Shown one piece after another: positions 14,781-37,555 of a DNA stretch of 64,000 nt. The DNA lies in contig RPFO01000138.1 in NCBI GenBank assembly GCA_009746045.1, forward strand, positions 973,259 through 1,037,258, given 5' to 3'. The translations under genes and the position numbers were made by a program. Positions within the stretch are counted from its first letter, which is position 1. Each line of letters opens with the position of its first letter. Source of the stretch: Mesostigma viride (taxonomy: Eukaryota > Streptophyta > Mesostigmatophyceae > Mesostigmatales > Mesostigmataceae). The notes under the pieces were generated by a model. The model saw only the letters and a program-made list of their open reading frames with translations. It was not told the DNA's origin and searched no databases.

Positions 14781-16427
14781 CATTGAATTGAATTGAATTG
14801 AATTGTAACATAACTCCGTTGGGAGTATATGTAGCACATAGCCCTTGAGAGGGGGGCATATGGCCTATCATACATCCTAAGCTACTTCCTGCAAGGGTGG
14901 GGATGTAAAGGACCCTTGCTCTAGGTGCACCAGGGCACTTGCATCCCCATGATCTTCAAGCTATGCCCAGCGAAGGGGGGAGCCTGTCATGGGGGGGAAG
15001 ATCAGCATAGCTATACAAAAAGCTAGGGCATGGCTGCTCAGCAGGGAGTTACTCCCTGCATGGGCACGGCATAATAAAATAAAGCTAGGCATCATCTGGA
15101 GGGTGGCTCATCATAGGCACACATGTACATGACTAAAAAGGCTAGGCCTCAGCTGGTATAGTGCCTGTAGTAGGCGGGCATGTACAAGGCCACTGTCTAA
15201 CTATTCTACACTACTGCTGTATTCCTCTAGGCTGCCCAGGGCTGGAGTTGCTGGGGCCGCGGTGGTCGAGGGGGTCGCTTGCCAGGGCTTGTGGCCGACG
15301 TAGATGGCCGCCCCCTTCCAGTACACCGGCTGGCCCGCCTTGGTCTGCCGGAGCTGGAGGTAGGTCGGCCATAGCTCCCGTCGCCGTTGTTGCTGTGCCA
15401 GGGTCAAGTCGTCGTCAAGGGTGAAGAGAGTCTTCTCGAGCCGCTTGCGGCGTCTGAGAAAAGAAATCTTGTCCGCCGGGGTCTTAAATGTGAGAAGGAG
15501 CGGGGGCGCCCCGGCCTTACCCCGCGCGCGGGGAAGGCGGTGGGCGGCCAGCTCGATCTCACCAGTAAGGCCCATGCGATCAAGGATTTCTCTCTCAAAA
15601 GCACGCGCAAGCTTCTCGGAATTCTCACCTTCCTCCATCTTGAGATTCTTGACAATGACGTTGAGGCTGCGCTTGGCGAGCTCGGCCTCCTCGCGGAGGT
15701 CAAGCGTCTGCCGCTGGAGCTGGGCTGCGACGGCGGAGGTGGTGGAGGTGGTATGTTGCTTAAGCATGTCCGCCCAGGTCGTGATGGGAGGGGCATCGCC
15801 GGCCAGGCCAGCAGGGGCTGGCTTGGCGGCAATGTCCTTCACTGCCTGGGCGGTGAGGCCCGCGGTGTTCTGCGAGACCTCGATAGCGATTGCATTATCC
15901 TTGAGGCGCTGGTCGATGTCGCGGAGCTGGGCGGTGATGGAGTCGGTGGAGGCGGAGGGGGGGGGGGGTGGAGGCGAGGAGGGTGGCGGTGGCGGTGGGG
16001 ATGGTGGGAAGCGCAGCAGCCAGCGTGCCGCCAATGGCCGCCACATCTGCGGCAAGAGGGGTCACGTGCTGCTCGAAAGCTTCCTTGAGGAGGGTGCGGA
16101 TGGTGGCTTCGGTGGGGAAGGTGGGGGGGGGCGGTGGGGAAGCCCAGATCGCGGCTTCGGAGCGTCCAACAAGGGAGCAGAGGGCGAAGCGTTGGAGCTT
16201 GGGGCGACTCATGCGATGAATGATTGGGAGAGCCTCGGCGGGGTCGACAAGCTGGCCATCACCAGGCCAGCGGCCACAGTTGTGGGACGTGAGGTACACG
16301 CACAGGGCTAGAAGCGAGGCGTGATTGCCGTAATACAAGTCTTCCATGAACCAACCGGGGCTGCGTTGCCAGAAGCCGGGGCGGTTGACGTCAAAGGAGG
16401 TCTCTTCCCAGGGCGGCTCAGCAGAGC
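14781..16427 (-). mobile_element. ORF1-only retroposon (copy 1), 3' part; interrupted by the gypsy element
   Basis: Minus-strand element. Its 3' end is a (CAATT)n-type tail (read here as repeated TTGAA at 14783-14805), preceded by the conserved terminal hairpin ACTCCGTTGGGAGT at 14813-14826. The ORF1 gene follows at 15201. The element is cut at 16427 by the gypsy retrotransposon. It resumes at 37486-37541 and ends at its 5' terminus at 44564. Excluding insertions it is about 1.9 kb, matching the uninterrupted copy at 54095-55998. Confidence 0.85.
15201..16427 (-). pseudogene. L1-type ORF1 protein gene, frameshifted and split
   Basis: Encodes an RNA-binding chaperone-like ORF1 protein of the L1 class. 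Reading on the minus strand, a Pro/Ser-rich part is followed by a heptad-like segment (ITAQLRDIDQRLKDNAI). Next comes an RRM-like region (RSLNVIVKNLK, then PPLLLTFKTPADKISFLRR), and then the C-terminal block FTLDDDLTLAQQQRRRELWP. The reading frame changes near a G run at about 15960, so 15201-16055 and 15895-16427 lie in different frames. The true start, MSKRLSTQRSLAAALG, lies at 44489 beyond the insertions. No reverse transcriptase follows: the 3' UTR and tail come directly after ORF1. Confidence 0.8.
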
Positions 16428-17564
16428 TGTCACGGACGCGCGCTATGTCATCCGGGCGCCCACTATGCACAAGACCGGTGACGTGCGCAAGGAATTTGTC
16501 TTCTACGCATTTTCGACAAAGGCTAGTGACCGGGGGGGGACACTAGCACTTGCAGCATAAGAGCGGACGAAAGTGTACGTGCACGCGCGCCGGGCCAGGC
16601 ACAGCTGGGCGCGCAGCACTGACTTGAGCGGACGGCAGCACAAGTGTGCAGCGTCGAGAGGATCATACGCGTGTTAGTGGACAGCTGGAGCTGAAGCTGG
16701 ACTGCTGGACTTCAACAGCGCCGAGGCTATTGACAGGCCAGGTGTCTTTGTGGTGTAGAATAGCGGGTCAACGTTATGAGGACTGGACAGAAAATGGAAA
16801 AGGACAATTTGCGGTGCGGAGCCAGATCGCTGGAATGAATGCGAAATCGCTGGCAGCCCTAAAAAGGGATTTCTTCTAGAAAGGAACGATTAGACGCAAT
16901 GTTTGCTGGGCCACTCACACGCAAGGTGTGAGCGTGCAGATTGTCTGAAGGATATTATGCTTCGACCTTGCTGGACGTGACTCAATGTCGGACATTCCCA
17001 GGGACAGAAATGCCGGAGCCTCTAGGAGATGAGATCGGCAACAGGGTAGCAATTTAGATTTGTCGGGATGCCTTCCTGCTTTTGTTGGCATGTGTGGTAG
17101 AAAGCCAGGACGGCAACTGGAATGCGGTTTCTATTCGCATGGTTCAGGCAGCAAGATAGTTTTGGCATTCCTGGCTGGACTGACAAGTGTGGCGTGTGTC
17201 ATGCGTGTGGCATGACGAATGGTTTGGTTCATAGTCGAAGAGGACTCTCACGCAGCGTGTAGTCTCTTCGAGTCTCTCGTTAGTGGCCTTCGTGTTTCTC
17301 CCTTTCCTTGGGAGCAAGGCCGGTAGCATGTCATGGAGCGCTGCCTAACTGCGGGCTCGTGAGCATGGAGTGCATCGATATTGAGACTATCAACGTGTTG
17401 TAATTGTATTAACTTTCTCAATAAATTCCGCATGTGCGGCTTCATCATCAGACTGTGCAAAGTGTGTGTTTGAAAGCATTATTCTATAGCAGGGGAGGCA
17501 ATAAGGTGGTTATCAGGCACGAGGGACAGTTCCTTGTCCTCGGCTGAGAGCCCTCCTTTCTTTA
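16428..17564 (+). repeat. Terminal repeat A1 of gypsy copy 1
   Basis: A 1137-bp repeat starting TGTCACGGACGC and ending CCTTTCTTTA. It recurs as A2 at 25877-27012 with only scattered single-base indels, for example AATAAATTCC versus AATAAATCC. AATAAA at 17420-17425 is a possible poly(A) signal. In A1 it is followed directly by internal sequence (CTCGAAGAG), not by B. Confidence 0.9.
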
Positions 17565-17832: not shown

Positions 17833-17859
17833 TTGTTTTGCCCATCGGTCAGCTGGTGC

Positions 17860-19668
17860 ATGCCACTGACGCGAGCGCAGACTCGAGCCATGGCAGATGC
17901 AAATAGAGCAGATGCCGACACGTCCGCTCCGGGGTCGAATGGCGGGATTCCTCCCGCCGTACCCGCAGTGGGTGAGAGTCGCGACCAAGAAGCGCCGCTG
18001 AGTATGGTGGCGCTGTTCGCGCAGATGCAAGCGCAGATGCAGCAACAGTCGCAACAGTTGCAGCAGCAATTGGCGCTGCAGATGCGGGAAGTGACCGACA
18101 GATTGGTGGCCGTAGAGGGTCGTCATCTGCAGTCCACACCATGGGACGGGCAGGCATCGATGCCGGGCCCCAGTGGTGTTGCCGCGGAGCCGAGGGAGCG
18201 GGACCAGCCGCCAACCTCAGGTAATGCGGCGGGAAGGGCTTCGATGGAACCGGGGGTTTTGGCTGGGTCGCTAACCCAACACGACTTGCTTGGTGAGGCG
18301 GATGGTCAGCCACGGGGCGAGTATACGCTGGCGCCCAGGCGCCTGCCTTTCGATCAAGCGCGAGACGGATTGCACGAGGAGAACGGGGCAGGGCTGGCGC
18401 GCGCGATGGACCCACACAGGGGTGCACCAGGACGCATGCTGCCAGGCGGGGCCTCAATTCCGTTTGGGCGAGGCGGTGGGGCGCTGACCGGCGGGTCGAC
18501 TGCACGGTGGTCAAGTGTGCCAATCGGGCGCATTCCGCCCATGGAGGACATAACCACGCCGCTGGCTTTCCGAGTACGGGAGGCAGCACGACCAAGCACG
18601 CTGGCGCAGGGACGCGCAGCTCAGCGACCGCCGGAGGATGCCGATGGGGTGCAGTACCCGCAAAGGGTGCGCCTCATACCGGAAGGCGCGAAGATGCCCA
18701 CCCTACCACGGGTGGACATGCGCGAGAAGTTCTCCACAACCGGCAATCTGGCCACGCTGGCGCAGGCCTACAACGCGTACAAGTCATGGATTGATCTGCA
18801 ATACATGACTACGCAAGGCGCTGTAATGCATGAGTTTGTGATGAACAACATGCATTTTTTCTTTCACGGCCTTACGCTGAGGCGAGTGGCTAGGCTGGTG
18901 GAGCAGTGGAGAGAGGTCTCGCTGTACACGCGTCACACGGACGTGTGGTTCGGCTTCGACGGGCGTGGCCAGCCCGACTATGACAACATCATGTATGGTG
19001 TCGACCCTGCCGAGGAACTGTGGGGCCTCCTTCGCCAGGAATACCCGGTGGAGACCATCAAGGCAGAGCGTGAGTGGCGCAGTTTCAAGATAGCCGAGGG
19101 TGAAACCCCGGAGCAATCTTACGAGCGCCTCATGGAGTTCGCCGGCGAAGTGGAGGACTGGTCCGAAAAGCTGGCGTGTCAGAAATGGCTGCAAGCGCTA
19201 GGCTCCAAGGAGATGGAGCTGCCCACGCCGCCCAACGGCCAGCCGTGGCGATTGCGGTCACTGTGCATTGAGGTCAGGGCCATGATGCGACGACACGCGC
19301 AAGGCCGGATCTCGGTAAGCACGGTGGTGGCCGAGCTGCAGGCCAAGGTCGACGCGCTGACCAAGGCCAAGTCGGGTGAGTCGTCTGCCACAAGACAAGC
19401 GCGCCCGCAAGGCGGCCACGGTGCTAGCAGGAACCAAGGGGGGTCTCGCAACGCCTCATCGCATGATGCAACCCAGGGTAACGCCGCTGGCGGCAACAAA
19501 GACGCTGCCGCCCCGACGCGAGCTGGGGGGGCACGTCCTCACAGACGGGTACTAGGACGGATGCGCGCAAATCGGGCTGCTTCCTTTGCGACAAGGATGG
19601 GCACCTTAGTCGCGAGTGTCCAAGCCGCTGCACGAAGCCGCATGGGGCAGACACGAAGTGGCACCTGA
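17860..19668 (+). CDS. Gag-like structural polyprotein (copy 1), frameshifted before its zinc knuckle
   Basis: Capsid-type protein that would package element RNA. The likely start is MPLTRAQTRAMADANRADAD; in-frame ATGs also lie at 17833 and 17890. Residues 45-85 are a Gln-rich coiled coil (MQAQMQQQSQQLQQQLALQM). A retrotransposon-gag-like helical core follows (YKSWIDLQYMTTQG, WFGFDGRGQPDYDNI, EREWRSFKIAEGETPEQSYE). A basic Gly/Asn/Arg tail precedes the zinc knuckle. A run of 7 G at about 19526-19532 (8 in copy 2) shifts the frame, so the knuckle CFLCDKDGHLSREC (19580-19625) is read only in the next frame. The stop at 19666 is a product of that shift. Confidence 0.85.
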   Translation: MPLTRAQTRAMADANRADADTSAPGSNGGIPPAVPAVGESRDQEAPLSMVALFAQMQAQMQQQSQQLQQQLALQMREVTDRLVAVEGRHLQSTPWDGQASMPGPSGVAAEPRERDQPPTSGNAAGRASMEPGVLAGSLTQHDLLGEADGQPRGEYTLAPRRLPFDQARDGLHEENGAGLARAMDPHRGAPGRMLPGGASIPFGRGGGALTGGSTARWSSVPIGRIPPMEDITTPLAFRVREAARPSTLAQGRAAQRPPEDADGVQYPQRVRLIPEGAKMPTLPRVDMREKFSTTGNLATLAQAYNAYKSWIDLQYMTTQGAVMHEFVMNNMHFFFHGLTLRRVARLVEQWREVSLYTRHTDVWFGFDGRGQPDYDNIMYGVDPAEELWGLLRQEYPVETIKAEREWRSFKIAEGETPEQSYERLMEFAGEVEDWSEKLACQKWLQALGSKEMELPTPPNGQPWRLRSLCIEVRAMMRRHAQGRISVSTVVAELQAKVDALTKAKSGESSATRQARPQGGHGASRNQGGSRNASSHDATQGNAAGGNKDAAAPTRAGGARPHRRVLGRMRANRAASFATRMGTLVASVQAAARSRMGQTRSGT

Positions 19669-22600
19669 TGAACAAGTGTCCAGCCGCGGGCATCAAGACG
19701 GTCCACTTCGCCGAGATGGCGGGCAAGACCGACTCGATGGAAGCCCAGGTGGCTGCCATCAAGCATGGTGAGGAGGCGACGGCGCCCCCCAACCAATTCG
19801 AGACGGTGTACCGGGAGGACCCATTCTGGGCGCCCATGCCGGGTGACGTCGAGATCAACGCTGCGGAGGCTACCAAAGGCAAGCAGGCACGCAGCCCGCT
19901 TTCTTTTCAGCAGGCACCCATGTTGCCTGCCGGGCAGTTGCCCGCGTCCTTTTCCATGCCGCTGGCTGGGGTGCAATCTGCTTTTGAGCATGCGAACCCT
20001 GCTGGGCTGGAGCAGCGTAGGCGATTGGCGCCTGTGTACCCAATGCCGTTCATTGTGGACGTACCCATGTTTTCAGCACGGCAGGTGGTCGACACCTTCG
20101 GGCAGAAGGGGGTTGAGTGGCTGGGGTCGGTTGTGTCCGAGATCCAGTTGTTCGCAGATGGGCATGATGTGCGCACCTTGCGCAATTCTGAGTCCGTCAC
20201 CTACGGGCGCCAGCCGGTAGAAGCCGCAGTGCCCGTGGTGCAAGCGGGAGTGGTCAGCACAAGTAGCCAGCAGCGCACTAGTGCAGTCCCCCAGGTTCCC
20301 ACGGTGGTTCCATACCCCAATGGTGAGCCGTCCATGGCGTTCCAAGCAGTTGGAGCCTGTGGAGATGTATGGAGCGACATGGTGACATGTCCGTTGGTTG
20401 GCGCAGTCAAGCTTGATAGCGGTGCTCAGCCGCTAGTCATCAGCACGGACTTGGCCACCATGCTGAACCTGACCTACGAGAACGGTGGCTTAGTGGAAAG
20501 CCCCGTGTCTGTGTCAGGTTGGCAGGGTCCGGCTAGTAAGCCGTACGCTATGACGGCGGTTAAAGTCAACGTGATTTTCAATCCGTTGCGCGCCTCTAGC
20601 ATGACCACCGTGTCCGCGTATGCGCTGGTGGTCAACAAGTGTGGATATTCCGCACTACTCGGGGTGGATGTCCTTGCTCGCGCCATGGTTCAGGTGGACT
20701 ATAGGGCGGAGGAGGCATCTTACATCCCTGATTGGGATGGGGCTGGCCTGAAGCGGGCCAGCGTGCCGGTCTCATGCTTCAGTTCTTCAGCCGGGGCTGC
20801 ACGCCTCAACCCTTCCGCGGCTGCGGGCGTGGTGGAGGTCAGCATGGTGGAGGTACGGGCGGCGGGCTCATCGGCGTGGGACAAGCATCGGACGGTGCTG
20901 CCCCAGCCAACGGCGAGCATTGCCAAGATGCGCACGCAGTGGTCGCTGGATGCTGTGACGTCCACGCGGCAGCTGGCTATGCGCAAGCGGGTAACTGAAG
21001 CCGTCATCACCATTCCTCAGATGGCCAGCCATGGCCTCACTTTGCTGCAACCGGGTGTCTCGGAGGCCCAAGGTAATTTTTCTGCTGCAATCTTACCGCA
21101 GGCCCCTGATTTTGCCAAGGGTGCGGTAGTGTTGGAACTGTTTGCGGGGATCGGAGGGGGCATTGCAGGCTTTTTGGCCGCAGGCGGCGTGTGCCGTAAA
21201 CTCATCGCGGTAGAGCCATCGCACAAGGCGCGTCAGGTGTACTTCAGTCACTGTGGCGTGTTGTCGCGAGAGTATCCCGCGCAGTTTCCGCCATCAGCAT
21301 GGCGTGACCCGTTTGGGGAATGTCCTCAAGATATCCGAGCCATCGGTGAGGTGCAGGTGCAGCAGTTGTTGCGCAGGCATCATGCCATCGACTTGGTAAT
21401 TGCGGGTTGGGAGTGCCAGGGCCTGAGCCAGGCAGGGCAAGGGCGGGGGCTAGCCGATCCGCGTAGCGCGCTGTTCTGGGAACTGTTGCGTGTGGTGGGA
21501 CTGTTGCAGTCGCGTCAGCCCCATCCGCCTGCGTATCTGTTTGAGAACGTTGTGGCGGGTGACAGCCCACATCAGGCGGTGCGGGAGGACTGGGCTACAA
21601 TCGTGGCACTCCTGGGGGAGCCCATCGTGTGTGACAACGCAGGGCTGGGTGGGCTCACGCATCGTTTGCGTGCCTATTGGACCAACGTGGCGTGTGCGAC
21701 CGATGTGCAGGCGGTCTTGGGGGCCGTAGCAAGGCAGCATCCGAGTGTGTCTGCGGAGGTAGCATTGCCTTCCCACCTAGTCACGCAGAAGGTGGATAGC
21801 GAGGATCGCCCACCGTATGCACGCGTCAACCGGGTCGGGAGCCCCATGTGTGCACTGCCGACCCTGGTCAGTTACCAAGGGTCGACAGCATACCGTGATC
21901 GGGGTAAGGGTCTCGTTTGGGACACTACCACCGGTCTGTTGGTGCAGCCACCCGCAGAATTTCGTGAGGCCAGCATGGGTTTTCATGTCGGGGCCTCGGC
22001 GCTGCCGGGCGTGCTCGAGAGTGAGCGCTGGTCTTTGATAGGCCAGGCTATGTCGGTGTTGCAGGTCGGGTATGTGCTGCTTGCATCGGTTGCCGTGCGC
22101 CAGTCTGGGGGGGCGTCCCCAGCCAATCCGCCTCAGCAGGTTGAGGCGCGCGCAGCCAAACTGAAGCGCCCTGCAGCGACGGGGACTTCATCAGCATGGG
22201 GGTGGCGTCTGCGACAGGTGTGGACTATCATTCTCATGACCGCCCTGCTGACCAGCACCGTGCTGGCCGGCGAGCCCACGCTGCATCGGGTAATACACCG
22301 TGCGGCACGCGAGGCTCCGGCGGTGGGTGTCACACCAGGCGTGGCAGCCTTTTCCTTGTTCCACGACGATGCGGCTAGGGCGCCGCATCTTGAGGCACAT
22401 GCGGTAGCTGTGGGTGATCCCGCGGATACGCACCCCTGGGCTATTGGCGAACACCTTTCTGATGCGCAGCGCTCAGCCATGCTAAAGTGGCTAGGCACTG
22501 CAAGGGGGGCCTTCGCTTTCACAAGTGATGAACTGGGGTGTTTCAATGGTGGGACCATGCGTGTTCCATTGGACACTGACACCCCTTTGTTCCGACGCCA

Positions 22601-23069
22601 GCATCGCCTGAGTCAGGCCGAGTTGGATTTTGTAGCCGAGCAATGCAAGGAGTTAGAGGATGCCGGTATCATCAGGCAATCTTCCTCCAGCTATGCCGCT
22701 GCCGTTGTCGTTGCGCCCAAGAAGGACGCTATCACCGGGGCATGGACGGGTATGCGCATGGCCACCGATCTGCGGTTGCTGAATGCACACACACCCGTGG
22801 ACCGTTACCCCATGCCACGTGTGGATGATGTCCTGGATAAGATATCTCCTCATGTGAAGTTTGTGTCCTCGCTGGACCTGCGTAGCGGCTTTCATCAGAT
22901 CGCAGTTGCGCCGGAGGATCAGCGGAAGCTTGCATTCTGGGGGGCGGCAATTTGTATGAGTGGGTGCGCATGCCCTTTGGGCACCGCAACGCTAGTGCTG
23001 TTTTCCAACGAGCTATGGACAAAGTGCTTGCAGGTCTTCCTTTCGCCGCTTGTTACATTGATGATGTAA
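19668..23069 (+). CDS. Pol part 1: protease, C5-cytosine DNA methyltransferase, N-terminal reverse transcriptase (copy 1)
   Basis: One open frame of 1133 codons, open upstream through the zinc knuckle as well. Near residue 250 VKLDSGAQPLVIS is a retropepsin active site (DSGA). Residues 480-810 form a C5-methyltransferase. Motif I is VVLELFAGIGGG, with GWECQGLSQAG as motif IV (catalytic Cys at residue 583), LFENVV as motif VI, HRLRAYW near motif VIII and SLIGQAM as motif X. A hydrophobic stretch (VWTIILMTALLTSTVLA) follows. RT begins with DLRLLNAHTPVDRYPMPRVD and SSLDLRSGFHQIAV. The frame breaks at about 22943 in the RT palm, so the last residues (AAICMSGC onward) are out of frame. The methyltransferase order between protease and RT is unusual for Ty3/gypsy. 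Confidence 0.92.
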   Translation: MNKCPAAGIKTVHFAEMAGKTDSMEAQVAAIKHGEEATAPPNQFETVYREDPFWAPMPGDVEINAAEATKGKQARSPLSFQQAPMLPAGQLPASFSMPLAGVQSAFEHANPAGLEQRRRLAPVYPMPFIVDVPMFSARQVVDTFGQKGVEWLGSVVSEIQLFADGHDVRTLRNSESVTYGRQPVEAAVPVVQAGVVSTSSQQRTSAVPQVPTVVPYPNGEPSMAFQAVGACGDVWSDMVTCPLVGAVKLDSGAQPLVISTDLATMLNLTYENGGLVESPVSVSGWQGPASKPYAMTAVKVNVIFNPLRASSMTTVSAYALVVNKCGYSALLGVDVLARAMVQVDYRAEEASYIPDWDGAGLKRASVPVSCFSSSAGAARLNPSAAAGVVEVSMVEVRAAGSSAWDKHRTVLPQPTASIAKMRTQWSLDAVTSTRQLAMRKRVTEAVITIPQMASHGLTLLQPGVSEAQGNFSAAILPQAPDFAKGAVVLELFAGIGGGIAGFLAAGGVCRKLIAVEPSHKARQVYFSHCGVLSREYPAQFPPSAWRDPFGECPQDIRAIGEVQVQQLLRRHHAIDLVIAGWECQGLSQAGQGRGLADPRSALFWELLRVVGLLQSRQPHPPAYLFENVVAGDSPHQAVREDWATIVALLGEPIVCDNAGLGGLTHRLRAYWTNVACATDVQAVLGAVARQHPSVSAEVALPSHLVTQKVDSEDRPPYARVNRVGSPMCALPTLVSYQGSTAYRDRGKGLVWDTTTGLLVQPPAEFREASMGFHVGASALPGVLESERWSLIGQAMSVLQVGYVLLASVAVRQSGGASPANPPQQVEARAAKLKRPAATGTSSAWGWRLRQVWTIILMTALLTSTVLAGEPTLHRVIHRAAREAPAVGVTPGVAAFSLFHDDAARAPHLEAHAVAVGDPADTHPWAIGEHLSDAQRSAMLKWLGTARGAFAFTSDELGCFNGGTMRVPLDTDTPLFRRQHRLSQAELDFVAEQCKELEDAGIIRQSSSSYAAAVVVAPKKDAITGAWTGMRMATDLRLLNAHTPVDRYPMPRVDDVLDKISPHVKFVSSLDLRSGFHQIAVAPEDQRKLAFWGAAICMSGCACPLGTATLVLFSNELWTKCLQVFLSPLVTLMM

Positions 23070-25705
23070 TCGTCTTTAGCGCGACATTTGAGGAGCACCT
23101 GGCGCACTTGGAGCAGGTTCGCTTGGCTCTCGAGGAGCATAATATGCGGCTGCACCCTGAGAAGTGCAAGTTCGCCCAGCGGACCCTCTCATTCCTTGGT
23201 CATCAGATTGTGCCGGGTGGCCGGACGCCTGATGCCGCCAAGGTCGAATCCATTGTGCAGGCCGCCGTACCCACGGATGTCTCAGGGGTGCGGGCGTATT
23301 TGGGTTTGGCTGGCTATTACCGAGGTTACATTGAGAACTTCAGCAGCAAGGTGAAGCCCTTGACCGAGTTACTCAAGAAGGGGTGCGTGTGGGCGTGGGG
23401 TCCCGCACAGCAACGCGCCATCGAGACAATCAAGCAGGAGCTCACGTCGGCCCCGATTCTGCGCGCCCCTGACTATGCTTTGCCGTTTGTGTTATATACC
23501 GACTGGTCCAAGGTAGGACTGGGTGCGGTCTTGGCGCAAAAGGATGGTGATGGGCGCGAGCACGTTATTGCTTATGCTAGTCGCAGCAACAACCCAGCGG
23601 AGAGCCGGTATTCTTCCTATGAGGGGGAGGCACTGGCTGTGGTGTGGGCCATCAAGCACTTTCGCCCGTATTTAGTTGGGCGCGTGTTTACTCTGGTGAC
23701 AGACCACCAGCCGCTTCAGTGGCTAATGACCAACACCAACCTGACGGGTAAGCTCGCCCGATGGGCCATGATTATCCAGGAGTACCACATGACCATTGTG
23801 CATCGGGCCGGCAAGGACCATGTCAACGCCGATGTGCTATCCCGATACGCCATGCCTACCACTGTTGACCACACTGGAGCCCGGGCCATGGGTGCCGAGG
23901 GCTCGTCGGGTTCTGTGGTCTTTGTGAACGCTGCTGGGTATGCGGCCGACGATGAGGAGGAGGCGTGGTGGCGCAGTGTCGAGTACTCTGTGGCGGACTT
24001 CGGCATCAGCGACGACCCGGTGCGGCCGTCGCCATTCACGCCATCCAAAGCTGTGTGCGCTATGGAAGAGGGTAGGTCTCTGTCCTTTGACATTGATCCT
24101 TCTCTGCAGCAGCTGATCGCTGTGCAGGCTCTCTTAGCGCGTAGCTCTCTTGCTGATTGCTACACCGCTGATATCTGGCTAGATGGTCGAGTTTTGGAGC
24201 AAGTGCAGGGTGCTGTCTTGACTCCTACTCCAGTCGATTGGACTCCTGCTCAGAAGGCGACGGAGTTGAACAGGGTGCAGCACAGGGCTGCAACCTATGG
24301 TTGGGAAGATGGGGTTTTGTACAAGCTGTTGGGCAAGCGTAGGGTGGTCGTCCCACCGCCTGACAAGCGCGTTGCTATAGTGCAGGCGTACCACGAGCGG
24401 TATGGTCACTTGGGTGGCAATCGCACGCTCAGCCTCGTACGGACCAGCTATTGGTGGAATAACATGCGACACACAGTGGCCCAGGTAGTGGCCAGCTGTG
24501 TCCCGTGTGCTCGAACCAAGGCTAACTTTAGCGCAGATCATGGTGCCAAGGAGCTGATGTCGCTTCCCATCAAGGGCTTGTTTTATCGCTGGCACGTCGA
24601 TCTGTGCGGGCCGTTTCAGGAGAGCCCTGACGGCAACCTCTATGTCATGGTATGCGTGGAGAGCTTTAGCAAATGGGTTGAGTTGATCCCCATTGCTGAC
24701 AAGCATGCCGCTACCACAGCGAAGCATTTTGCAGACATCATCACCAGGTTTGGGGCTCCCGCGGAGGTAGTCACGGACCAGGGTGGTGAGTTCAGGGGTG
24801 AGTTCCAGGAGTTGCTGGATGGATGTCTTATTGATCACCGTCGCACTTCTCGGGAGCATCCTCAGGCCAATGGTTTGGCTGAGAGATTGGTGCAGACCGT
24901 CAAGCAGGCGCTGCGCAAGTGGAGCCTGCAGGTGCCGGAGTCGGCCAGGTGGGATCGCGAGTTGGCATGGATTGCCATGGGTTATCGCATGTCTCCCCAG
25001 GAGTCTCTCGCTACCTTCTCCCCGTATTTCCTTCTGTTCGGGCGTAATCCTCTTTTGCCTACGGAGGCACAGGTTGCGCACCCCGAACCCATGGCCTTCG
25101 ACAACGCTCAGCAATTTTTGGTTGAGGTGCTGGCCAGGGCAGAGACTTTTAAGAAGGTCATGCCCATCGCGATGAACAACTTGTTCATTGCTCAGCACAG
25201 GGACTCCCTGCGTTACGCTCAGCGCCGGGGGGGCGCATACATGGCTCGCCAGCTGCGGTTTAGGCCAGGGCAGTATGTTTTCCTGCGCACTCAGCTGAAG
25301 CACACTTTGGATGTGGAGGCGGGGCCCACCATTTTGCGCATTGTGGCTATCAAACCATCGGGAGTGGCAATTTTGGAGGGCGCCGACGGGAGCCGTACGA
25401 CAGACAACCTCAGCAATCTCAGTCCCTGCTCACTGCCCAATTTGGTCCACGACCTCCAACCGCACACATCTCGCCGAGTCAAGGACGCCCAGTGTCAGGT
25501 TTGTCACCGGGTCGATCAGGCGGAGTCCATGTTATTGTGTGATCAGTGTAACTGTGGTTGGCACATGCAGTGCTTGCAGCCCGTGGTCACCAGCATTCCG
25601 GAGGGGGATTGGTTTTGTCCAGTGTGCACCGCTGCGCAGTTTACCTCCCGCAGCTTGACTGCGGTCACCGCTGCCCTTGTCTTGGTACGATCGCTGTCTT
25701 CGTGA
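22952..25705 (+). CDS. Pol part 2: C-terminal RT, RNase H, integrase, PHD finger (copy 1)
   Basis: Continues RT in another frame: EWVRMPFGHRNASAVFQRAM, the catalytic YIDD at 23054, then LHPEKCKFAQ and FLGHQI. RNase H shows FVLYTDWSKVGLGAV, EGEALAVVWAIKHF and TDHQPLQWL. Integrase has an HHCC zinc module (HERYGHLGG to CVPCARTK). Its D,D,E core is HVDLCGPF (D at 24599), VVTDQGGEF (D at 24776) and GLAERLV (E at 24881); the last two acidic residues are 34 apart, one less than usual. An SH3-like tail (RFRPGQYVFLRTQL) is followed by a C4HC3 PHD finger at about 25490-25630 (CQVCHRV, LLCDQCNCGWHMQC, WFCPVC). Such a finger would read histone tails; chromodomains are more usual at this place. The ATG at 22952 is only the first in frame. 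Confidence 0.93.
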   Translation: MYEWVRMPFGHRNASAVFQRAMDKVLAGLPFAACYIDDVIVFSATFEEHLAHLEQVRLALEEHNMRLHPEKCKFAQRTLSFLGHQIVPGGRTPDAAKVESIVQAAVPTDVSGVRAYLGLAGYYRGYIENFSSKVKPLTELLKKGCVWAWGPAQQRAIETIKQELTSAPILRAPDYALPFVLYTDWSKVGLGAVLAQKDGDGREHVIAYASRSNNPAESRYSSYEGEALAVVWAIKHFRPYLVGRVFTLVTDHQPLQWLMTNTNLTGKLARWAMIIQEYHMTIVHRAGKDHVNADVLSRYAMPTTVDHTGARAMGAEGSSGSVVFVNAAGYAADDEEEAWWRSVEYSVADFGISDDPVRPSPFTPSKAVCAMEEGRSLSFDIDPSLQQLIAVQALLARSSLADCYTADIWLDGRVLEQVQGAVLTPTPVDWTPAQKATELNRVQHRAATYGWEDGVLYKLLGKRRVVVPPPDKRVAIVQAYHERYGHLGGNRTLSLVRTSYWWNNMRHTVAQVVASCVPCARTKANFSADHGAKELMSLPIKGLFYRWHVDLCGPFQESPDGNLYVMVCVESFSKWVELIPIADKHAATTAKHFADIITRFGAPAEVVTDQGGEFRGEFQELLDGCLIDHRRTSREHPQANGLAERLVQTVKQALRKWSLQVPESARWDRELAWIAMGYRMSPQESLATFSPYFLLFGRNPLLPTEAQVAHPEPMAFDNAQQFLVEVLARAETFKKVMPIAMNNLFIAQHRDSLRYAQRRGGAYMARQLRFRPGQYVFLRTQLKHTLDVEAGPTILRIVAIKPSGVAILEGADGSRTTDNLSNLSPCSLPNLVHDLQPHTSRRVKDAQCQVCHRVDQAESMLLCDQCNCGWHMQCLQPVVTSIPEGDWFCPVCTAAQFTSRSLTAVTAALVLVRSLSS

Positions 25706-25732
25706 TGGGGCCGGTCGCCAGCGAGGGGGGGA

Positions 25733-25874
25733 ATCATGGGACAGGTCCTCGCCCACCCCACAGGGCATGCAGTTAAGGCAGGCACATCAGCTCAGCTCAT
25801 TTGGGTTTTACCAAATTAAGCTGAGTGGCCAGCCGCCATGGTGGCGCCGGAGATTGTGGCACGCAGACGCGACA
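25733..25874 (+). repeat. Terminal repeat B1 of gypsy copy 1
   Basis: 142 bp starting ATCATGGGACAGG and ending GACGCGACA, immediately after the polypurine tract. It contains a strong imperfect hairpin around the turn TTTGGGTTTTACCAAA. Two bases (GC) separate it from A2, forming GACAGCTGTC, a perfect 10-bp palindrome. Confidence 0.85.
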
Positions 25875-25876
25875 GC

Positions 25877-27012
25877 TGTCACGGACGCGCGCTATGTCAT
25901 CCGGGCGCCCACTATGCACAAGACCGGTGACGTGCGCAAGGAATTTGTCTTCTACGCATTTTCGACAAAGGCTAGTGACCGGGGGGGACACTAGCACTTG
26001 CAGCATAAGAGCGGACGAAAGTGTACGTGCACGCGCGCCGGGCCAGGCACAGCTGGGCGCGCAGCACTGACTTGAGCGGACGGCAGCACAAGTGTGCAGC
26101 GTCGAGAGGATCATACGCGTGTTAGTGGACAGCTGGAGCTGAAGCTGGACTGCTGGACTTCAACAGCGCCGAGGCTATTGACAGGCCAGGTGTCTTTGTG
26201 GTGTAGAATAGCGGGTCAACGTTATGAGGACTGGACAGAAAATGGAAAAGGACAATTTGCGGTGCGGAGCCAGATCGCTGGAATGAATGCGAAATCGCTG
26301 GCAGCCCTAAAAAGGGATTTCTTCTAGAAAGGAACGATTAGACGCAATGTTTGCTGGGCCACTCACACGCAAGGTGTGAGCGTGCAGATTGTCTGAAGGA
26401 TATTATGCTTCGACCTTGCTGGACGTGACTCAATGTCGGACATTCCCAGGGACAGAAATGCCGGAGCCTCTAGGAGATGAGATCGGCAACAGGGTAGCAA
26501 TTTAGATTTGTCGGGATGCCTTCCTGCTTTTGTTGGCATGTGTGGTAGAAAGCCAGGACGGCAACTGGAATGCGGTTTCTATTCGCATGGTTCAGGCAGC
26601 AAGATAGTTTTGGCATTCCTGGCTGGACTGACAAGTGTGGCGTGTGTCATGCGTGTGGCATGACGAATGGTTTGGTTCATAGTCGAAGAGGACTCTCACG
26701 CAGCGTGTAGTCTCTTCGAGTCTCTCGTTAGTGGCCTTCGTGTTTCTCCCTTTCCTTGGGAGCAAGGCCGGTAGCATGTCATGGAGCGCTGCCTAACTGC
26801 GGGCTCGTGAGCATGGAGTGCATCGATATTGAGACTATCAACGTGTTGTAATTGTATTAACTTTCTCAATAAATCCGCATGTGCGGCTTCATCATCAGAC
26901 TGTGCAAAGTGTGTGTTTTGAAAGCATTATTCTATAGCAGGGGAGGCAATAAGGTGGTTATCAGGCACGAGGGACAGTTCCTTGTCCTCGGCTGAGAGCC
27001 CTCCTTTCTTTA
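25877..27012 (+). repeat. Terminal repeat A2 of gypsy copy 1
   Basis: 1136 bp, nearly identical to A1 at 16428-17564. It is followed directly by B2, so A2+B2 makes one contiguous TGTC...GACA repeat. Confidence 0.9.
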
Positions 27013-27154
27013 ATCATGGGACAGGTCCTCGCCCACCCCACAGGGCATGCAGTTAAGGCAGGCACATCAGCTCAGCTCATTTGGGTTTTACCAAATTAAG
27101 CTGAGTGGCCAGCCGCCATGGTGGCGCCGGAGATTGTGGCACGCAGACGCGACA
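27013..27154 (+). repeat. Terminal repeat B2 of gypsy copy 1
   Basis: 142 bp identical or nearly so to B1. It ends GACA and is followed by the flank GAGC and then resumed ORF1-retroposon sequence. Confidence 0.88.
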
Positions 27155-27269
27155 GAGCGACTGCGCTTAGGTTCAGGCGATGCAGATGCGAGGCGAGCCC
27201 GGGAGGCTGGGCGAGCACCAGTGCACTACACCGGGAAGGGGTCTGTGACATTTTGTGATATTTTTTATC
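27155..27269. mobile_element. Right flank of gypsy copy 1: ORF1 retroposon 5' part and start of the TIR element
   Basis: Bases 27155 to about 27228 continue the minus-strand ORF1-only retroposon (GCGCTTAGGTTCAGGCGATG matches 55733-55752 closely). After GTGCACTA begins the terminal inverted repeat of the DNA element (CACCGGGAAGGGG, then GTGACATTTTGTGAT), cut off by the N run. The same succession recurs after gypsy copy 2 at 37486-37580. Confidence 0.8.
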
Positions 27270-27393: not shown

Positions 27394-27897
27394 TTGTCGG
27401 GATGCCTTCCTGCTTTTGTTGGCATGTGTGGTAGAAAGCCAGGACGGCAACTGGAATGCGGTTTCTATTCGCATGGTTCAGGCAGCAAGATAGTTTTGGC
27501 ATTCCTGGCTGGACTGACAAGTGTGGCGTGTGTCATGCGTGTGGCATGACGAATGGTTTGGTTCATAGTCGAAGAGGACTCTCACGCAGCGTGTAGTCTC
27601 TTCGAGTCTCTCGTTAGTGGCCTTCGTGTTTCTCCCTTTCCTTGGGAGCAAGGCCGGTAGCATGTCATGGAGCGCTGCCTAACTGCGGGCTCGTGAGCAT
27701 GGAGTGCATCGATATTGAGACTATCAACGTGTTGTAATTGTATTAACTTTCTCAATAAACTCCGCATGTGCGGCTTCATCATCAGACTGTGCAAAGTGTG
27801 TGTTGAAAGCATTATTCTATAGCAGGGGAGGCAATAAGGTGGTTATCAGGCACGAGGGACAGTTCCTTGTCCTCGGCTGAGAGCCCTCCTTTCTTTA
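27394..27897 (+). repeat. Partial terminal repeat A1 of gypsy copy 2
   Basis: The last 504 bp of repeat A, directly joined to internal sequence (CTCGAAGAG) as in copy 1. The first 630 bp or so are missing in the gap. Confidence 0.88.
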
Positions 27898-28192
27898 CTC
27901 GAAGAGACTACCCGGTAGTCTGCTTCCTTCTGTTCGAAGCCAAGACGTTGGCTTTAGTGTTTAGCAACCATCAGCAGTACAGGGAACGGCCTGGCTGACA
28001 GTTTGTAAAGGAAGTGTCTTGAGACAGATTTTAAGAAAATAGAACTAGCCAGAATTTGCTGGCTCTTGTCTTTTTCTGGCAGGCTAGTCGAGTCGTTATC
28101 CTTGACACCTGTTATAAAGCCTTTGGTTGTTGCTTCTTCTCAGCGAAACCTAGGCTTGTTGGTTCTTGTTTTGCCCATCGGTCAGCTGGTGC

Positions 28193-30553
28193 ATGCCACT
28201 GACGCGAGCGCAGACTCGAGCCATGGCAGATGCAAATAGAGCAGATGCCGACACGTCCGCTCCGGGGTCGAATGGCGGGATTCCTCCCGCCGTACCCGCA
28301 GTGGGTGAGAGTCGCGACCAAGAAGCGCCGCTGAGTATGGTGGCGCTGTTCGCGCAGATGCAAGCGCAGATGCAGCAACAGTCGCAACAGTTGCAGCAGC
28401 AATTGGCGCTGCAGATGCGGGAAGTGACCGACAGATTGGTGGCCGTAGAGGGTCGTCATCTGCAGTCCACACCATGGGACGGGCAGGCATCGATGCCGGG
28501 CCCCAGTGGTGTTGCCGCGGAGCCGAGGGAGCGGGACCAGCCGCCAACCTCAGGTAATGCGGCGGGAAGGGCTTCGATGGAACCGGGGGTTTTGGCTGGG
28601 TCGCTAACCCAACACGACTTGCTTGGTGAGGCGGATGGTCAGCCACGGGGCGAGTATACGCTGGCGCCCAGGCGCCTGCCTTTCGATCAAGCGCGAGACG
28701 GATTGCACGAGGAGAACGGGGCAGGGCTGGCGCGCGCGATGGACCCACACAGGGGTGCACCAGGACGCATGCTGCCAGGCGGGGCCTCAATTCCGTTTGG
28801 GCGAGGCGGTGGGGCGCTGACCGGCGGGTCGACTGCACGGTGGTCAAGTGTGCCAATCGGGCGCATTCCGCCCATGGAGGACATAACCACGCCGCTGGCT
28901 TTCCGAGTACGGGAGGCAGCACGACCAAGCACGCTGGCGCAGGGACGCGCAGCTCAGCGACCGCCGGAGGATGCCGATGGGGTGCAGTACCCGCAAAGGG
29001 TGCGCCTCATACCGGAAGGCGCGAAGATGCCCACCCTACCACGGGTGGACATGCGCGAGAAGTTCTCCACAACCGGCAATCTGGCCACGCTGGCGCAGGC
29101 CTACAACGCGTACAAGTCATGGATTGATCTGCAATACATGACTACGCAAGGCGCTGTAATGCATGAGTTTGTGATGAACAACATGCATTTTTTCTTTCAC
29201 GGCCTTACGCTGAGGCGAGTGGCTAGGCTGGTGGAGCAGTGGAGAGAGGTCTCGCTGTACACGCGTCACACGGACGTGTGGTTCGGCTTCGACGGGCGTG
29301 GCCAGCCCGACTATGACAACATCATGTATGGTGTCGACCCTGCCGAGGAACTGTGGGGCCTCCTTCGCCAGGAATACCCGGTGGAGACCATCAAGGCAGA
29401 GCGTGAGTGGCGCAGTTTCAAGATAGCCGAGGGTGAAACCCCGGAGCAATCTTACGAGCGCCTCATGGAGTTCGCCGGCGAAGTGGAGGACTGGTCCGAA
29501 AAGCTGGCGTGTCAGAAATGGCTGCAAGCGCTAGGCTCCAAGGAGATGGAGCTGCCCACGCCGCCCAACGGCCAGCCGTGGCGATTGCGGTCACTGTGCA
29601 TTGAGGTCAGGGCCATGATGCGACGACACGCGCAAGGCCGGATCTCGGTAAGCACGGTGGTGGCCGAGCTGCAGGCCAAGGTCGACGCGCTGACCAAGGC
29701 CAAGTCGGGTGAGTCGTCTGCCACAAGACAAGCGCGCCCGCAAGGCGGCCACGGTGCTAGCAGGAACCAAGGGGGGTCTCGCAACGCCTCATCGCATGAT
29801 GCAACCCAGGGTAACGCCGCTGGCGGCAACAAAGACGCTGCCGCCCCGACGCGAGCTGGGGGGGGCACGTCCTCACAGACGGGTACTAGGACGGATGCGC
29901 GCAAATCGGGCTGCTTCCTTTGCGACAAGGATGGGCACCTTAGTCGCGAGTGTCCAAGCCGCTGCACGAAGCCGCATGGGGCAGACACGAAGTGGCACCT
30001 GATGAACAAGTGTCCAGCCGCGGGCATCAAGACGGTCCACTTCGCCGAGATGGCGGGCAAGACCGACTCGATGGAAGCCCAGGTGGCTGCCATCAAGCAT
30101 GGTGAGGAGGCGACGGCGCCCCCAACCAATTCGAGACGGTGTACCGGGAGGACCCATTCTGGGCGCCCATGCCGGGTGACGTCGAGATCAACGCTGCGGA
30201 GGCTACCAAAGGCAAGCAGGCACGCAGCCCGCTTTCTTTTCAGCAGGCACCCATGTTGCCTGCCGGGCAGTTGCCCGCGTCCTTTTCCATGCCGCTGGCT
30301 GGGGTGCAATCTGCTTTTGAGCATGCGAACCCTGCTGGGCTGGAGCAGCGTAGGCGATTGGCGCCTGTGTACCCAATGCCGTTCATTGTGGACGTACCCA
30401 TGTTTTCAGCACGGCAGGTGGTCGACACCTTCGGGCAGAAGGGGGTTGAGTGGCTGGGGTCGGTTGTGTCCGAGATCCAGTTGTTCGCAGATGGGCATGA
30501 TGTGCGCACCTTGCGCAATTCTGAGTCCGTCACCTACGGGCGCCAGCCGGTAG
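28193..30553 (+). CDS. Gag-like polyprotein with in-frame zinc knuckle (copy 2), frameshifted after it
   Basis: The 8-G run at about 29860-29867 keeps gag in frame with the zinc knuckle CFLCDKDGHLSREC (29911-29952, CX2CX4HX4C). The C run at about 30119-30123 is one base shorter than in copy 1, so the frame is lost just after ATAPP, and the following 140 or so residues (Arg- and Cys-rich) are nonsense. The two copies are thus damaged at complementary sites. Confidence 0.85.
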   Translation: MPLTRAQTRAMADANRADADTSAPGSNGGIPPAVPAVGESRDQEAPLSMVALFAQMQAQMQQQSQQLQQQLALQMREVTDRLVAVEGRHLQSTPWDGQASMPGPSGVAAEPRERDQPPTSGNAAGRASMEPGVLAGSLTQHDLLGEADGQPRGEYTLAPRRLPFDQARDGLHEENGAGLARAMDPHRGAPGRMLPGGASIPFGRGGGALTGGSTARWSSVPIGRIPPMEDITTPLAFRVREAARPSTLAQGRAAQRPPEDADGVQYPQRVRLIPEGAKMPTLPRVDMREKFSTTGNLATLAQAYNAYKSWIDLQYMTTQGAVMHEFVMNNMHFFFHGLTLRRVARLVEQWREVSLYTRHTDVWFGFDGRGQPDYDNIMYGVDPAEELWGLLRQEYPVETIKAEREWRSFKIAEGETPEQSYERLMEFAGEVEDWSEKLACQKWLQALGSKEMELPTPPNGQPWRLRSLCIEVRAMMRRHAQGRISVSTVVAELQAKVDALTKAKSGESSATRQARPQGGHGASRNQGGSRNASSHDATQGNAAGGNKDAAAPTRAGGGTSSQTGTRTDARKSGCFLCDKDGHLSRECPSRCTKPHGADTKWHLMNKCPAAGIKTVHFAEMAGKTDSMEAQVAAIKHGEEATAPPTNSRRCTGRTHSGRPCRVTSRSTLRRLPKASRHAARFLFSRHPCCLPGSCPRPFPCRWLGCNLLLSMRTLLGWSSVGDWRLCTQCRSLWTYPCFQHGRWSTPSGRRGLSGWGRLCPRSSCSQMGMMCAPCAILSPSPTGASR

Positions 30554-33402: not shown

Positions 33403-36038
33403 TCGTCTTTAGCGCGACATTTGAGGAGCACCTGGCGCACTTGGAGCAGGTTCGCTTGGCTCTCGAGGAGCATAATATGCGGCTGCACCCTGAGAAGTGC
33501 AAGTTCGCCCAGCGGACCCTCTCATTCCTTGGTCATCAGATTGTGCCGGGTGGCCGGACGCCTGATGCCGCCAAGGTCGAATCCATTGTGCAGGCCGCCG
33601 TACCCACGGATGTCTCAGGGGTGCGGGCGTATTTGGGTTTGGCTGGCTATTACCGAGGTTACATTGAGAACTTCAGCAGCAAGGTGAAGCCCTTGACCGA
33701 GTTACTCAAGAAGGGGTGCGTGTGGGCGTGGGGTCCCGCACAGCAACGCGCCATCGAGACAATCAAGCAGGAGCTCACGTCGGCCCCGATTCTGCGCGCC
33801 CCTGACTATGCTTTGCCGTTTGTGTTATATACCGACTGGTCCAAGGTAGGACTGGGTGCGGTCTTGGCGCAAAAGGATGGTGATGGGCGCGAGCACGTTA
33901 TTGCTTATGCTAGTCGCAGCAACAACCCAGCGGAGAGCCGGTATTCTTCCTATGAGGGGGAGGCACTGGCTGTGGTGTGGGCCATCAAGCACTTTCGCCC
34001 GTATTTAGTTGGGCGCGTGTTTACTCTGGTGACAGACCACCAGCCGCTTCAGTGGCTAATGACCAACACCAACCTGACGGGTAAGCTCGCCCGATGGGCC
34101 ATGATTATCCAGGAGTACCACATGACCATTGTGCATCGGGCCGGCAAGGACCATGTCAACGCCGATGTGCTATCCCGATACGCCATGCCTACCACTGTTG
34201 ACCACACTGGAGCCCGGGCCATGGGTGCCGAGGGCTCGTCGGGTTCTGTGGTCTTTGTGAACGCTGCTGGGTATGCGGCCGACGATGAGGAGGAGGCGTG
34301 GTGGCGCAGTGTCGAGTACTCTGTGGCGGACTTCGGCATCAGCGACGACCCGGTGCGGCCGTCGCCATTCACGCCATCCAAAGCTGTGTGCGCTATGGAA
34401 GAGGGTAGGTCTCTGTCCTTTGACATTGATCCTTCTCTGCAGCAGCTGATCGCTGTGCAGGCTCTCTTAGCGCGTAGCTCTCTTGCTGATTGCTACACCG
34501 CTGATATCTGGCTAGATGGTCGAGTTTTGGAGCAAGTGCAGGGTGCTGTCTTGACTCCTACTCCAGTCGATTGGACTCCTGCTCAGAAGGCGACGGAGTT
34601 GAACAGGGTGCAGCACAGGGCTGCAACCTATGGTTGGGAAGATGGGGTTTTGTACAAGCTGTTGGGCAAGCGTAGGGTGGTCGTCCCACCGCCTGACAAG
34701 CGCGTTGCTATAGTGCAGGCGTACCACGAGCGGTATGGTCACTTGGGTGGCAATCGCACGCTCAGCCTCGTACGGACCAGCTATTGGTGGAATAACATGC
34801 GACACACAGTGGCCCAGGTAGTGGCCAGCTGTGTCCCGTGTGCTCGAACCAAGGCTAACTTTAGCGCAGATCATGGTGCCAAGGAGCTGATGTCGCTTCC
34901 CATCAAGGGCTTGTTTTATCGCTGGCACGTCGATCTGTGCGGGCCGTTTCAGGAGAGCCCTGACGGCAACCTCTATGTCATGGTATGCGTGGAGAGCTTT
35001 AGCAAATGGGTTGAGTTGATCCCCATTGCTGACAAGCATGCCGCTACCACAGCGAAGCATTTTGCAGACATCATCACCAGGTTTGGGGCTCCCGCGGAGG
35101 TAGTCACGGACCAGGGTGGTGAGTTCAGGGGTGAGTTCCAGGAGTTGCTGGATGGATGTCTTATTGATCACCGTCGCACTTCTCGGGAGCATCCTCAGGC
35201 CAATGGTTTGGCTGAGAGATTGGTGCAGACCGTCAAGCAGGCGCTGCGCAAGTGGAGCCTGCAGGTGCCGGAGTCGGCCAGGTGGGATCGCGAGTTGGCA
35301 TGGATTGCCATGGGTTATCGCATGTCTCCCCAGGAGTCTCTCGCTACCTTCTCCCCGTATTTCCTTCTGTTCGGGCGTAATCCTCTTTTGCCTACGGAGG
35401 CACAGGTTGCGCACCCCGAACCCATGGCCTTCGACAACGCTCAGCAATTTTTGGTTGAGGTGCTGGCCAGGGCAGAGACTTTTAAGAAGGTCATGCCCAT
35501 CGCGATGAACAACTTGTTCATTGCTCAGCACAGGGACTCCCTGCGTTACGCTCAGCGCCGGGGGGGCGCATACATGGCTCGCCAGCTGCGGTTTAGGCCA
35601 GGGCAGTATGTTTTCCTGCGCACTCAGCTGAAGCACACTTTGGATGTGGAGGCGGGGCCCACCATTTTGCGCATTGTGGCTATCAAACCATCGGGAGTGG
35701 CAATTTTGGAGGGCGCCGACGGGAGCCGTACGACAGACAACCTCAGCAATCTCAGTCCCTGCTCACTGCCCAATTTGGTCCACGACCTCCAACCGCACAC
35801 ATCTCGCCGAGTCAAGGACGCCCAGTGTCAGGTTTGTCACCGGGTCGATCAGGCGGAGTCCATGTTATTGTGTGATCAGTGTAACTGTGGTTGGCACATG
35901 CAGTGCTTGCAGCCCGTGGTCACCAGCATTCCGGAGGGGGATTGGTTTTGTCCAGTGTGCACCGCTGCGCAGTTTACCTCCCGCAGCTTGACTGCGGTCA
36001 CCGCTGCCCTTGTCTTGGTACGATCGCTGTCTTCGTGA
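33285..36038 (+). CDS. Pol part 2 of copy 2: RT C-terminus, RNase H, integrase, PHD finger
   Basis: 917 codons, the same length and apparently the same protein as 22952-25705 in copy 1, including YIDD, the D,D,E triad and the C4HC3 PHD finger near the C terminus. The stop is followed by the polypurine tract and B1. Confidence 0.9.
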   Translation: MYEWVRMPFGHRNASAVFQRAMDKVLAGLPFAACYIDDVIVFSATFEEHLAHLEQVRLALEEHNMRLHPEKCKFAQRTLSFLGHQIVPGGRTPDAAKVESIVQAAVPTDVSGVRAYLGLAGYYRGYIENFSSKVKPLTELLKKGCVWAWGPAQQRAIETIKQELTSAPILRAPDYALPFVLYTDWSKVGLGAVLAQKDGDGREHVIAYASRSNNPAESRYSSYEGEALAVVWAIKHFRPYLVGRVFTLVTDHQPLQWLMTNTNLTGKLARWAMIIQEYHMTIVHRAGKDHVNADVLSRYAMPTTVDHTGARAMGAEGSSGSVVFVNAAGYAADDEEEAWWRSVEYSVADFGISDDPVRPSPFTPSKAVCAMEEGRSLSFDIDPSLQQLIAVQALLARSSLADCYTADIWLDGRVLEQVQGAVLTPTPVDWTPAQKATELNRVQHRAATYGWEDGVLYKLLGKRRVVVPPPDKRVAIVQAYHERYGHLGGNRTLSLVRTSYWWNNMRHTVAQVVASCVPCARTKANFSADHGAKELMSLPIKGLFYRWHVDLCGPFQESPDGNLYVMVCVESFSKWVELIPIADKHAATTAKHFADIITRFGAPAEVVTDQGGEFRGEFQELLDGCLIDHRRTSREHPQANGLAERLVQTVKQALRKWSLQVPESARWDRELAWIAMGYRMSPQESLATFSPYFLLFGRNPLLPTEAQVAHPEPMAFDNAQQFLVEVLARAETFKKVMPIAMNNLFIAQHRDSLRYAQRRGGAYMARQLRFRPGQYVFLRTQLKHTLDVEAGPTILRIVAIKPSGVAILEGADGSRTTDNLSNLSPCSLPNLVHDLQPHTSRRVKDAQCQVCHRVDQAESMLLCDQCNCGWHMQCLQPVVTSIPEGDWFCPVCTAAQFTSRSLTAVTAALVLVRSLSS

Positions 36039-36064
36039 TGGGGCCGGTCGCCAGCGAGGGGGGA

Positions 36065-36206: not shown

Positions 36207-36208
36207 GC

Positions 36209-37541: not shown

Positions 37542-37555
37542 CACCGGAAGGGGTC

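Follow-up and report, generated by a model that had tools for sequence, protein, structure and literature searches.

In this work we have analysed a stretch of 64,000 nucleotides from the genome of the unicellular streptophyte alga Mesostigma viride (hereafter the window), and we find that its positions 16428-27154 are a complete Ty3/Gypsy-type retrotransposon. Judged by sequence comparison and structure prediction, the C5-cytosine methyltransferase (MTase) within its pol is a complete catalytic domain of the DNMT3 type, and in diverged subfamilies of the element purifying selection holds this domain much as it holds the integrase. The most likely function, which we favour by a modest measure, is that the element methylates CpG sites of its own new DNA, so that new insertions would arrive already marked.

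Organization of the element and its ends

The element does not have two plain identical LTRs. Its layout is a direct repeat A1, a gag-like ORF, pol and then the repeats B1, A2 and B2. The Pfam scan of the ORFs gave the pol order as protease-like region, C5-cytosine methyltransferase, reverse transcriptase (RT), RNase H, integrase and PHD finger. Three proposals of a first-pass annotation made from the letters of the window are thereby borne out: the methyltransferase sits within a Ty3/Gypsy pol in the order PR-MTase-RT, pol carries a PHD finger (PF00628, 4.2e-9), and the repeats, as compared with each other, are split into A1 ... B1-A2-B2. The features are as follows.

16424..16427, no strand: 5' target-site duplication GAGC; the same 4 bases stand at 27155-27158 (junction sequence)
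16428..17564 (end approximate), + strand: direct repeat A1, starting TGTCACGG; about 1.14 kb, 99.65% identity to A2
17833..19668, + strand: gag-like ORF (ORF list)
20409..20669, + strand: aspartic-protease-like stretch, placed via the near-identical Mesostigma protein P0001; DSGA in the translation
21111..22082, + strand: predicted DNMT3-type C5-cytosine methyltransferase domain (PF00145, profile against DNMT3A, structure model, Foldseek)
22716..23209, + strand: reverse transcriptase (RVT_1, first part 0.0025, below the cut-off; second part 2e-19)
23471..23785, + strand: RNase H (RT_RNaseH, 7.4e-39)
24353..24862, + strand: integrase, H2C2 zinc-binding part and DDE (rve) core (Integrase_H2C2 9.5e-17; rve 3.2e-11)
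25493..25627, + strand: PHD finger at the end of pol (PF00628; closest solved chain BAZ2B, 5.5e-16)
25720..25733 (ends approximate), + strand: purine-rich tract immediately 5' of B1, a candidate plus-strand primer by its sequence
25731..25874 (start approximate), + strand: direct repeat B1, ending ...GCGACA; 144 bases, 100% identity to B2
25871..25880, no strand: B1-A2 joint GACAGCTGTC, in which the element ends abut with a GC spacer (sequence)
25877..27015 (end approximate), + strand: direct repeat A2 (repeat comparison)
27012..27154 (start approximate), + strand: direct repeat B2, whose ...GCGACA is the end of the element (repeat comparison)
27155..27158, no strand: 3' target-site duplication GAGC (junction sequence)
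27394..37485, + strand: second element copy, 99.6% identity to copy 1 over 10.2 kb; MTase ORF from 30139 (PF00145, 2.5e-11)

The gag-like ORF of copy 1 had no Pfam match, and its counterpart in copy 2 gave a weak zinc knuckle (5.7e-4, about 29909-29959). The protease region of P0001 matched Asp_protease_2 at 0.034, which is below the cut-off. The pol frame of either window copy is interrupted inside RT, near 22952-23069, and copy 2 lacks its 5' end owing to a 124-base gap in the assembly (27270-27393). The 3' flanks of the two copies (27180-27266 and 37499-37578) have 87 bases in common at 92%, and parts of this flank are found again at other points of the window; a tandem duplication may lie behind this, or the element may have inserted into a repeat, or one insertion may be represented twice. 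Because of the 99.6% identity, the gap between them and the common flank, the two copies may be a single insertion seen twice, and the 93 scored genomic copies described below are therefore the stronger support. Between the MTase and RT lies a hydrophobic segment, VWTIILMTALLTS (about 22218-22256), which subfamilies A, B and C all retain despite a fast-evolving linker. Positions 6470-12825 of the window, immediately upstream of the repeat-rich region, are a satellite array with a 37-base unit, repeated about 170 times at 95-99% similarity.

Both ends could be read in three of the four copies examined (start TGTCACGG, end GCGACA), and the fourth gave neither. The termini are TG...CA, and the three copies are flanked by 4-bp target duplications, GAGC, TAGT and AGCT, which argues for a DDE integrase and not a tyrosine recombinase; no match to the latter was found in the six ORFs scanned. 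A DIRS element was considered and rejected on account of the rve integrase and these duplications. The B1-A2 joint reads CA-GC-TG, as expected if the element ends were joined via two bases. This palindrome recurs at loci L030 and L042 with diverged neighbours. The whole 10-mer GACAGCTGTC occurs also at L035, within a subfamily-A copy, and at L043, the host MET1 locus, where it presumably stands by chance, so that the independent support for the joint comes from L030 and L042. The DNA form of the element would be a circle with abutted ends which the integrase opens at CA/TG; a similar circle junction is known from IS911-type elements of bacteria.

The closest solved relatives of the PHD finger are those of BAZ2B (5.5e-16), Lid, BAZ2A, CHD4, WSTF and ATXR5. 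Several PHD fingers of this group bind histone H3 unmethylated at K4. Standing after the integrase, the finger of the element would bind the unmodified H3 tail and direct insertion to chromatin without H3K4 methylation.

The methyltransferase domain and its conservation

All the motifs reported by the first-pass annotation are present, namely I (LELFAGIGGG), IV (GWECQG), VI (LFENVV), a VIII-like motif (HRLRAYW) and X (SLIGQAM), with motif IV reading ECQ in departure from PCQ. The Pfam DNA_methylase model matched frame 19668 significantly (PF00145, 2.8e-11, 43.9 bits against a cut-off of 22, residues 488-628), and the objection of a missing match falls away. The alignment spans just positions 3-111 of the 324-position model. 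The predicted structure of 21111-22082 corresponds to the whole catalytic domain (pLDDT 93.6, pTM 0.92), and its best structural matches are DNMT3A and DNMT3B (Foldseek, DNMT3A 6e-17). The family profile likewise found DNMT3A at 1.4e-24, with plant and bacterial enzymes ranking behind and the RNA enzyme DNMT2 far below at 2.7e-8. Among public proteins the best match of the region is a gene model of M. viride itself, P0001 (eukprot Mesvir1), at 99% identity. As nearest source, bacteria were rejected, since their C5 enzymes score far under DNMT3 against the profile (best named bacterial match of the protein search 1.0e-7, P0076), and so were viruses, for which the viral_contigs scan gave 14 weakly related loci, the best at 3e-10 and 33% identity.

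Do other genomic copies carry the domain? The first-pass annotation had raised the possibility that they lack it. In all 93 scored copies (from 582 candidates) the MTase is 100% identical over 457 aa with zero stops, which upholds its presence in these copies; the query was the domain itself, so the search speaks of domain-bearing copies only and cannot reveal MTase-less ones. An unbroken pol frame of 2,074 aa was present in 38 of the 93. Over about 4.37 kb, 17 of 20 fetched copies (L009-L028) had at most two substitutions relative to window copy 1, and the other three, L010, L011 and L023, differed from it at 85-586 positions, located towards either end of the sequence fetched.

Two diverged subfamilies have the MTase at the same place as in subfamily A. 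Subfamily B (L029) encodes PR, MTase, RT, RNase H, integrase and PHD finger, and subfamily C (L031) encodes PR, MTase and part of RT within the fetched stretch; their MTases are 67% and 76% identical, respectively, to that of A over 310 aligned residues. Between subfamilies the MTase has a dN of 0.20-0.31, and fourfold-degenerate sites differ at 0.66-0.71. Elsewhere in pol, dN is 0.20 for the integrase, 0.12-0.16 for pieces of RT and 0.35-0.59 for the linker after the MTase. Synonymous sites are saturated (NG86 dS in 9 of 11 pairs), hence these values give no precise dN/dS ratio. Purifying selection about as strong as that on the integrase argues that the MTase works for the element.

The genome holds another C5-methyltransferase, an ORF of 364 aa that scores equally at each of 10 loci, namely L002-L008 (contigs C35, C47, C64, C79, C340, C389 and C815) and three more; most of the contigs are short (22-44 kb for those listed). 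At L002 the three adjoining ORFs had no Pfam match. Possibly these loci are contamination, or they belong to a virus or to a further mobile element.

Relatives among algae and known elements

Protein searches listed 10 entries for the window domain and 21 for P0010 of Klebsormidium nitens, each count including the query's own. Relatives of the MTase were found in K. nitens (KFL_009030040), Closterium sp. NIES-53, eukprot records and many environmental contigs. The MTase precedes RT in Mesostigma, Klebsormidium, Closterium and some of the contigs; in other relatives it follows RNase H and precedes the integrase. K. nitens P0010 has the order PR-like, MTase, RT, RNase H, integrase. In the trees of the MTase, RT-RNase H and integrase, the labelled rows of the two domain orders are split by one branch (100/99, 99/98 and 97/98), and P0010, whose MTase row is partial, lies on the Mesostigma side of it in all three. 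In the first labelling of the MTase tree, 13 of the 32 rows bore no domain-order label. Under a narrower labelling, the AU test rejected the seven 'MTase after RNase H' rows as one clade (p 0.029), because rows with the MTase directly before the integrase, in ORFs without RT, fall among the seven. Six such rows were then added, and both trees gave a two-sided split.

The agreement of the MTase, RT and integrase trees argues for a single change of domain order, and the simplest reading of the sequences is one capture followed by one move of the MTase within pol. A capture private to one species was rejected on the basis of the homologous elements in several algae and the agreeing trees. Taken without a fixed root or a firm branching order of the hosts, the trees favour a capture that would be older than, or shared beyond, one genus, and horizontal spread among hosts may have occurred. 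Some relatives carry further domains. P0003 has a G-patch domain (3.1e-7) at residues 404-438, placed between its MTase and its integrase. The last 160 or so residues of P0004, P0007, P0008, P0009, P0029 and P0030, in which the MTase precedes the integrase, form a second domain with DPWAG...ND...PP-like motifs, whose sequence is reminiscent of a degenerate N6-adenine methyltransferase (MethyltransfD12 against P0004, 0.069); it had no PDB match, and a profile search gave a chance-level match only.

The Mesostigma element belongs to the KnitGypsy-Dnmt3 kind. De Mendoza et al. (2018; PMC5890265) describe KnitGypsy-Dnmt3 of K. nitens as an LTR Gypsy element with Dnmt3-related domains in the Pol ORF and many intronless copies, its DNMT under purifying selection, and the legend of their Fig. 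4 states that its repeat structure 'is the same as that of a DIRS retrotransposon'. The first-pass annotation knew of no such combination; this claim does not hold, as KnitGypsy-Dnmt3 already unites Gypsy pol, Dnmt3 and DIRS-like repeats (PMC5890265) and K. nitens P0010 has the same domain order. By description, the two elements are alike in their Gypsy pol (RT, RNase H, DDE integrase), the Dnmt3 in the Pol ORF, the A-coding-B-A-B repeats and purifying selection. They differ in host, and for the Mesostigma element we describe a PHD finger, TG...CA ends, 4-bp duplications and the GC-spaced joint. None of these was mentioned for KnitGypsy-Dnmt3 in the part of PMC5890265 available to us, and among the literature matches listed (subscription papers and supplements lie outside this scope) there was no PHD-bearing MTase-Gypsy element. 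Similarly, in the available part of the Mesostigma genome paper (PMC6947507) we found no such element, and 'gypsy' is absent from its main text. The residence of some DNMT3s in retrotransposons of streptophytes and dinoflagellates is stated by Sarre et al. (2025; PMC12344493), and DNMT3s in retrotransposons likewise in PMC6338049.

Other systems share single traits with the element. SymbioDIRS-Dnmt3 and SymbioLINE-Dnmt of dinoflagellates are also retrotransposons encoding a C5-methyltransferase, the former with Dnmt3 and split repeats (PMC5890265), but they are a DIRS element with tyrosine recombinase and a LINE, whereas the Mesostigma element is a Gypsy with DDE integrase. Orchid Gypsy elements (PMC9289625) have captured a nucleic-acid modification enzyme too, although theirs is an AlkB-type m6A RNA demethylase in a separate ORF, and a DNA methyltransferase is unmentioned in the text available. 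Chromoviruses, as described, combine a Ty3/Gypsy pol with a chromatin-reading module after the integrase; however, this module is a chromodomain at the integrase C terminus and not a PHD finger, and a methyltransferase is unmentioned. The catalytic domain nearest to the element MTase by profile and fold is that of animal DNMT3A/3B (ADD and methyltransferase), which are, however, cellular genes with PCN and not ECQ as motif IV. The ADD domain of DNMT3A/3B reads H3K4me0; the PHD finger of the element is of a different kind and stands at the opposite end of pol.

Proposed self-methylation and alternative functions

In 12 subfamily-B copies compared with L029, 41 of 1248 CpG positions carry a transition, as do 33 of the 4206 remaining C/G positions (odds ratio 4.3, p 1e-9); for transversions the counts were 14 at CpG and 44 at other C/G positions (odds ratio 1.07). 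The transition rate was 0.033 in CG, 0.011 in CHG and 0.0065 in CHH context. C-to-T changes at CpG exceeded those elsewhere in 12 of 12 copies, L029 being a reference and not the ancestor, and changes from TG/CA to CG relative to L029 were also frequent in several of them. From this pattern the subfamily-B copies look CpG-methylated over time. Three pairs of MTase-less window repeats served as a control and gave 15/197 at CpG vs 68/719 elsewhere (ratio 0.8), in a small and older sample; they belong to a second, older family present in both orientations (14780-15656, 42472-42629, 47357-49845 and 54584-54764). Subfamily A is without CpG depletion (observed/expected 0.85, against 0.70-0.82 in three other window stretches), perhaps because its copies are young.

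Could the footprint be due to host enzymes? On that explanation MET1, CMT, DRM or DNMT3 of the host alone lay the CpG mark, and the MTase of the element would serve another end, such as slower transposition, altered host defence genes or counter-defence. The host does have a MET1-type gene (L043, with DNMT1-RFD, MTase and a BAH match below the cut-off). M. viride DNA contains 5mC, chiefly at CG, and the genome is widely CG-methylated (PMC6947507). Retrotransposons without DNMT have spread too in the dinoflagellate hosts of such elements, according to PMC5890265. However, this explanation leaves the alternative use of the MTase unspecified, and with purifying selection near the level of the integrase the most direct use would be on DNA of the element itself; we regard the host-only explanation as possible but doubtful. 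An action on RNA or an RNA-DNA hybrid of the element, for example protecting genomic RNA or aiding reverse transcription, seems to us unlikely. The MTase adjoins RT in pol and would be packaged with RNA, its motif IV deviates from PCQ, and RNA methylation was considered for SymbioLINE-Dnmt by De Mendoza et al. (PMC5890265). Against this stand the nearness of profile and fold to the DNA enzymes DNMT3A/3B, with DNMT2 so far behind, and the CpG-transition excess of the subfamily-B copies.

Less probable still is that the domain is structural or inactive and kept as a folded piece of the polyprotein. Motif IV is PCQ in 16 of the 32 family domains, ECQ in 15 and PYQ in one, P0011, where Tyr replaces the catalytic Cys; yet the Cys is present in the other 31, and loose patterns of motifs VI and VIII are matched by all 32. 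We give almost no credence to an assembly join or a chance insertion in one copy. It is true that the window copies flank an assembly gap and have some flank in common, but at least 93 copies exist, two diverged subfamilies have the domain at the same place, and other algae contain homologous elements for which the trees agree.

We therefore return to self-methylation as the preferred reading. It draws on the DNMT3-type assignment by profile, model and fold, an MTase unbroken in every one of the 93 scored copies, purifying selection, the subfamily-B CpG excess, the host MET1-type gene, the 5mC of M. viride at CG and the activity of related SymbioDIRS-Dnmt3 domains in yeast; against it are the ECQ motif IV, subfamily A without CpG depletion, a CpG footprint that may be due to the host, and the silence of the KnitGypsy-Dnmt3 domain in yeast. 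In the yeast experiments two SymbioDIRS-Dnmt3 domains methylated CpG de novo and the KnitGypsy-Dnmt3 domain gave no methylation, a result its authors call inconclusive (PMC5890265). The enzyme of the element would be active and act on its own DNA, and the MET1-type methyltransferase of the host would keep the mark through cell division. The expected benefit would be masked extrachromosomal DNA and quiet, less harmful insertions. A more far-reaching proposal, which we put forward tentatively, is mobile self-marking by a widespread green-algal lineage that would have acquired DNMT3 once, before streptophyte algae diverged. Its CpG writer and H3K4me0-type PHD reader would re-create the logic of DNMT3A; the CA-GC-TG circle would be methylated, after which the DDE enzyme would cut and insert it with 4-bp duplications, and copies would be born silent and kept so by host MET1.

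The present analysis adds the spread over algae and the agreeing trees and, for the element itself, a PHD finger, a GC-spaced joint together with 4-bp duplications, and a CpG footprint. The capture was taken to be independent in the K. nitens lineage (PMC5890265), whereas our trees argue against a private Klebsormidium event and favour an older or shared capture and a single move of the domain within pol. Self-marking is directly testable in Mesostigma because there are an assembled genome, published bisulfite sequencing, a MET1-type gene and near-identical copies. DNA methylation usually has retrotransposons as its targets; that a lineage of them has kept a DNMT3-type enzyme in several algal hosts suggests that self-methylation pays.
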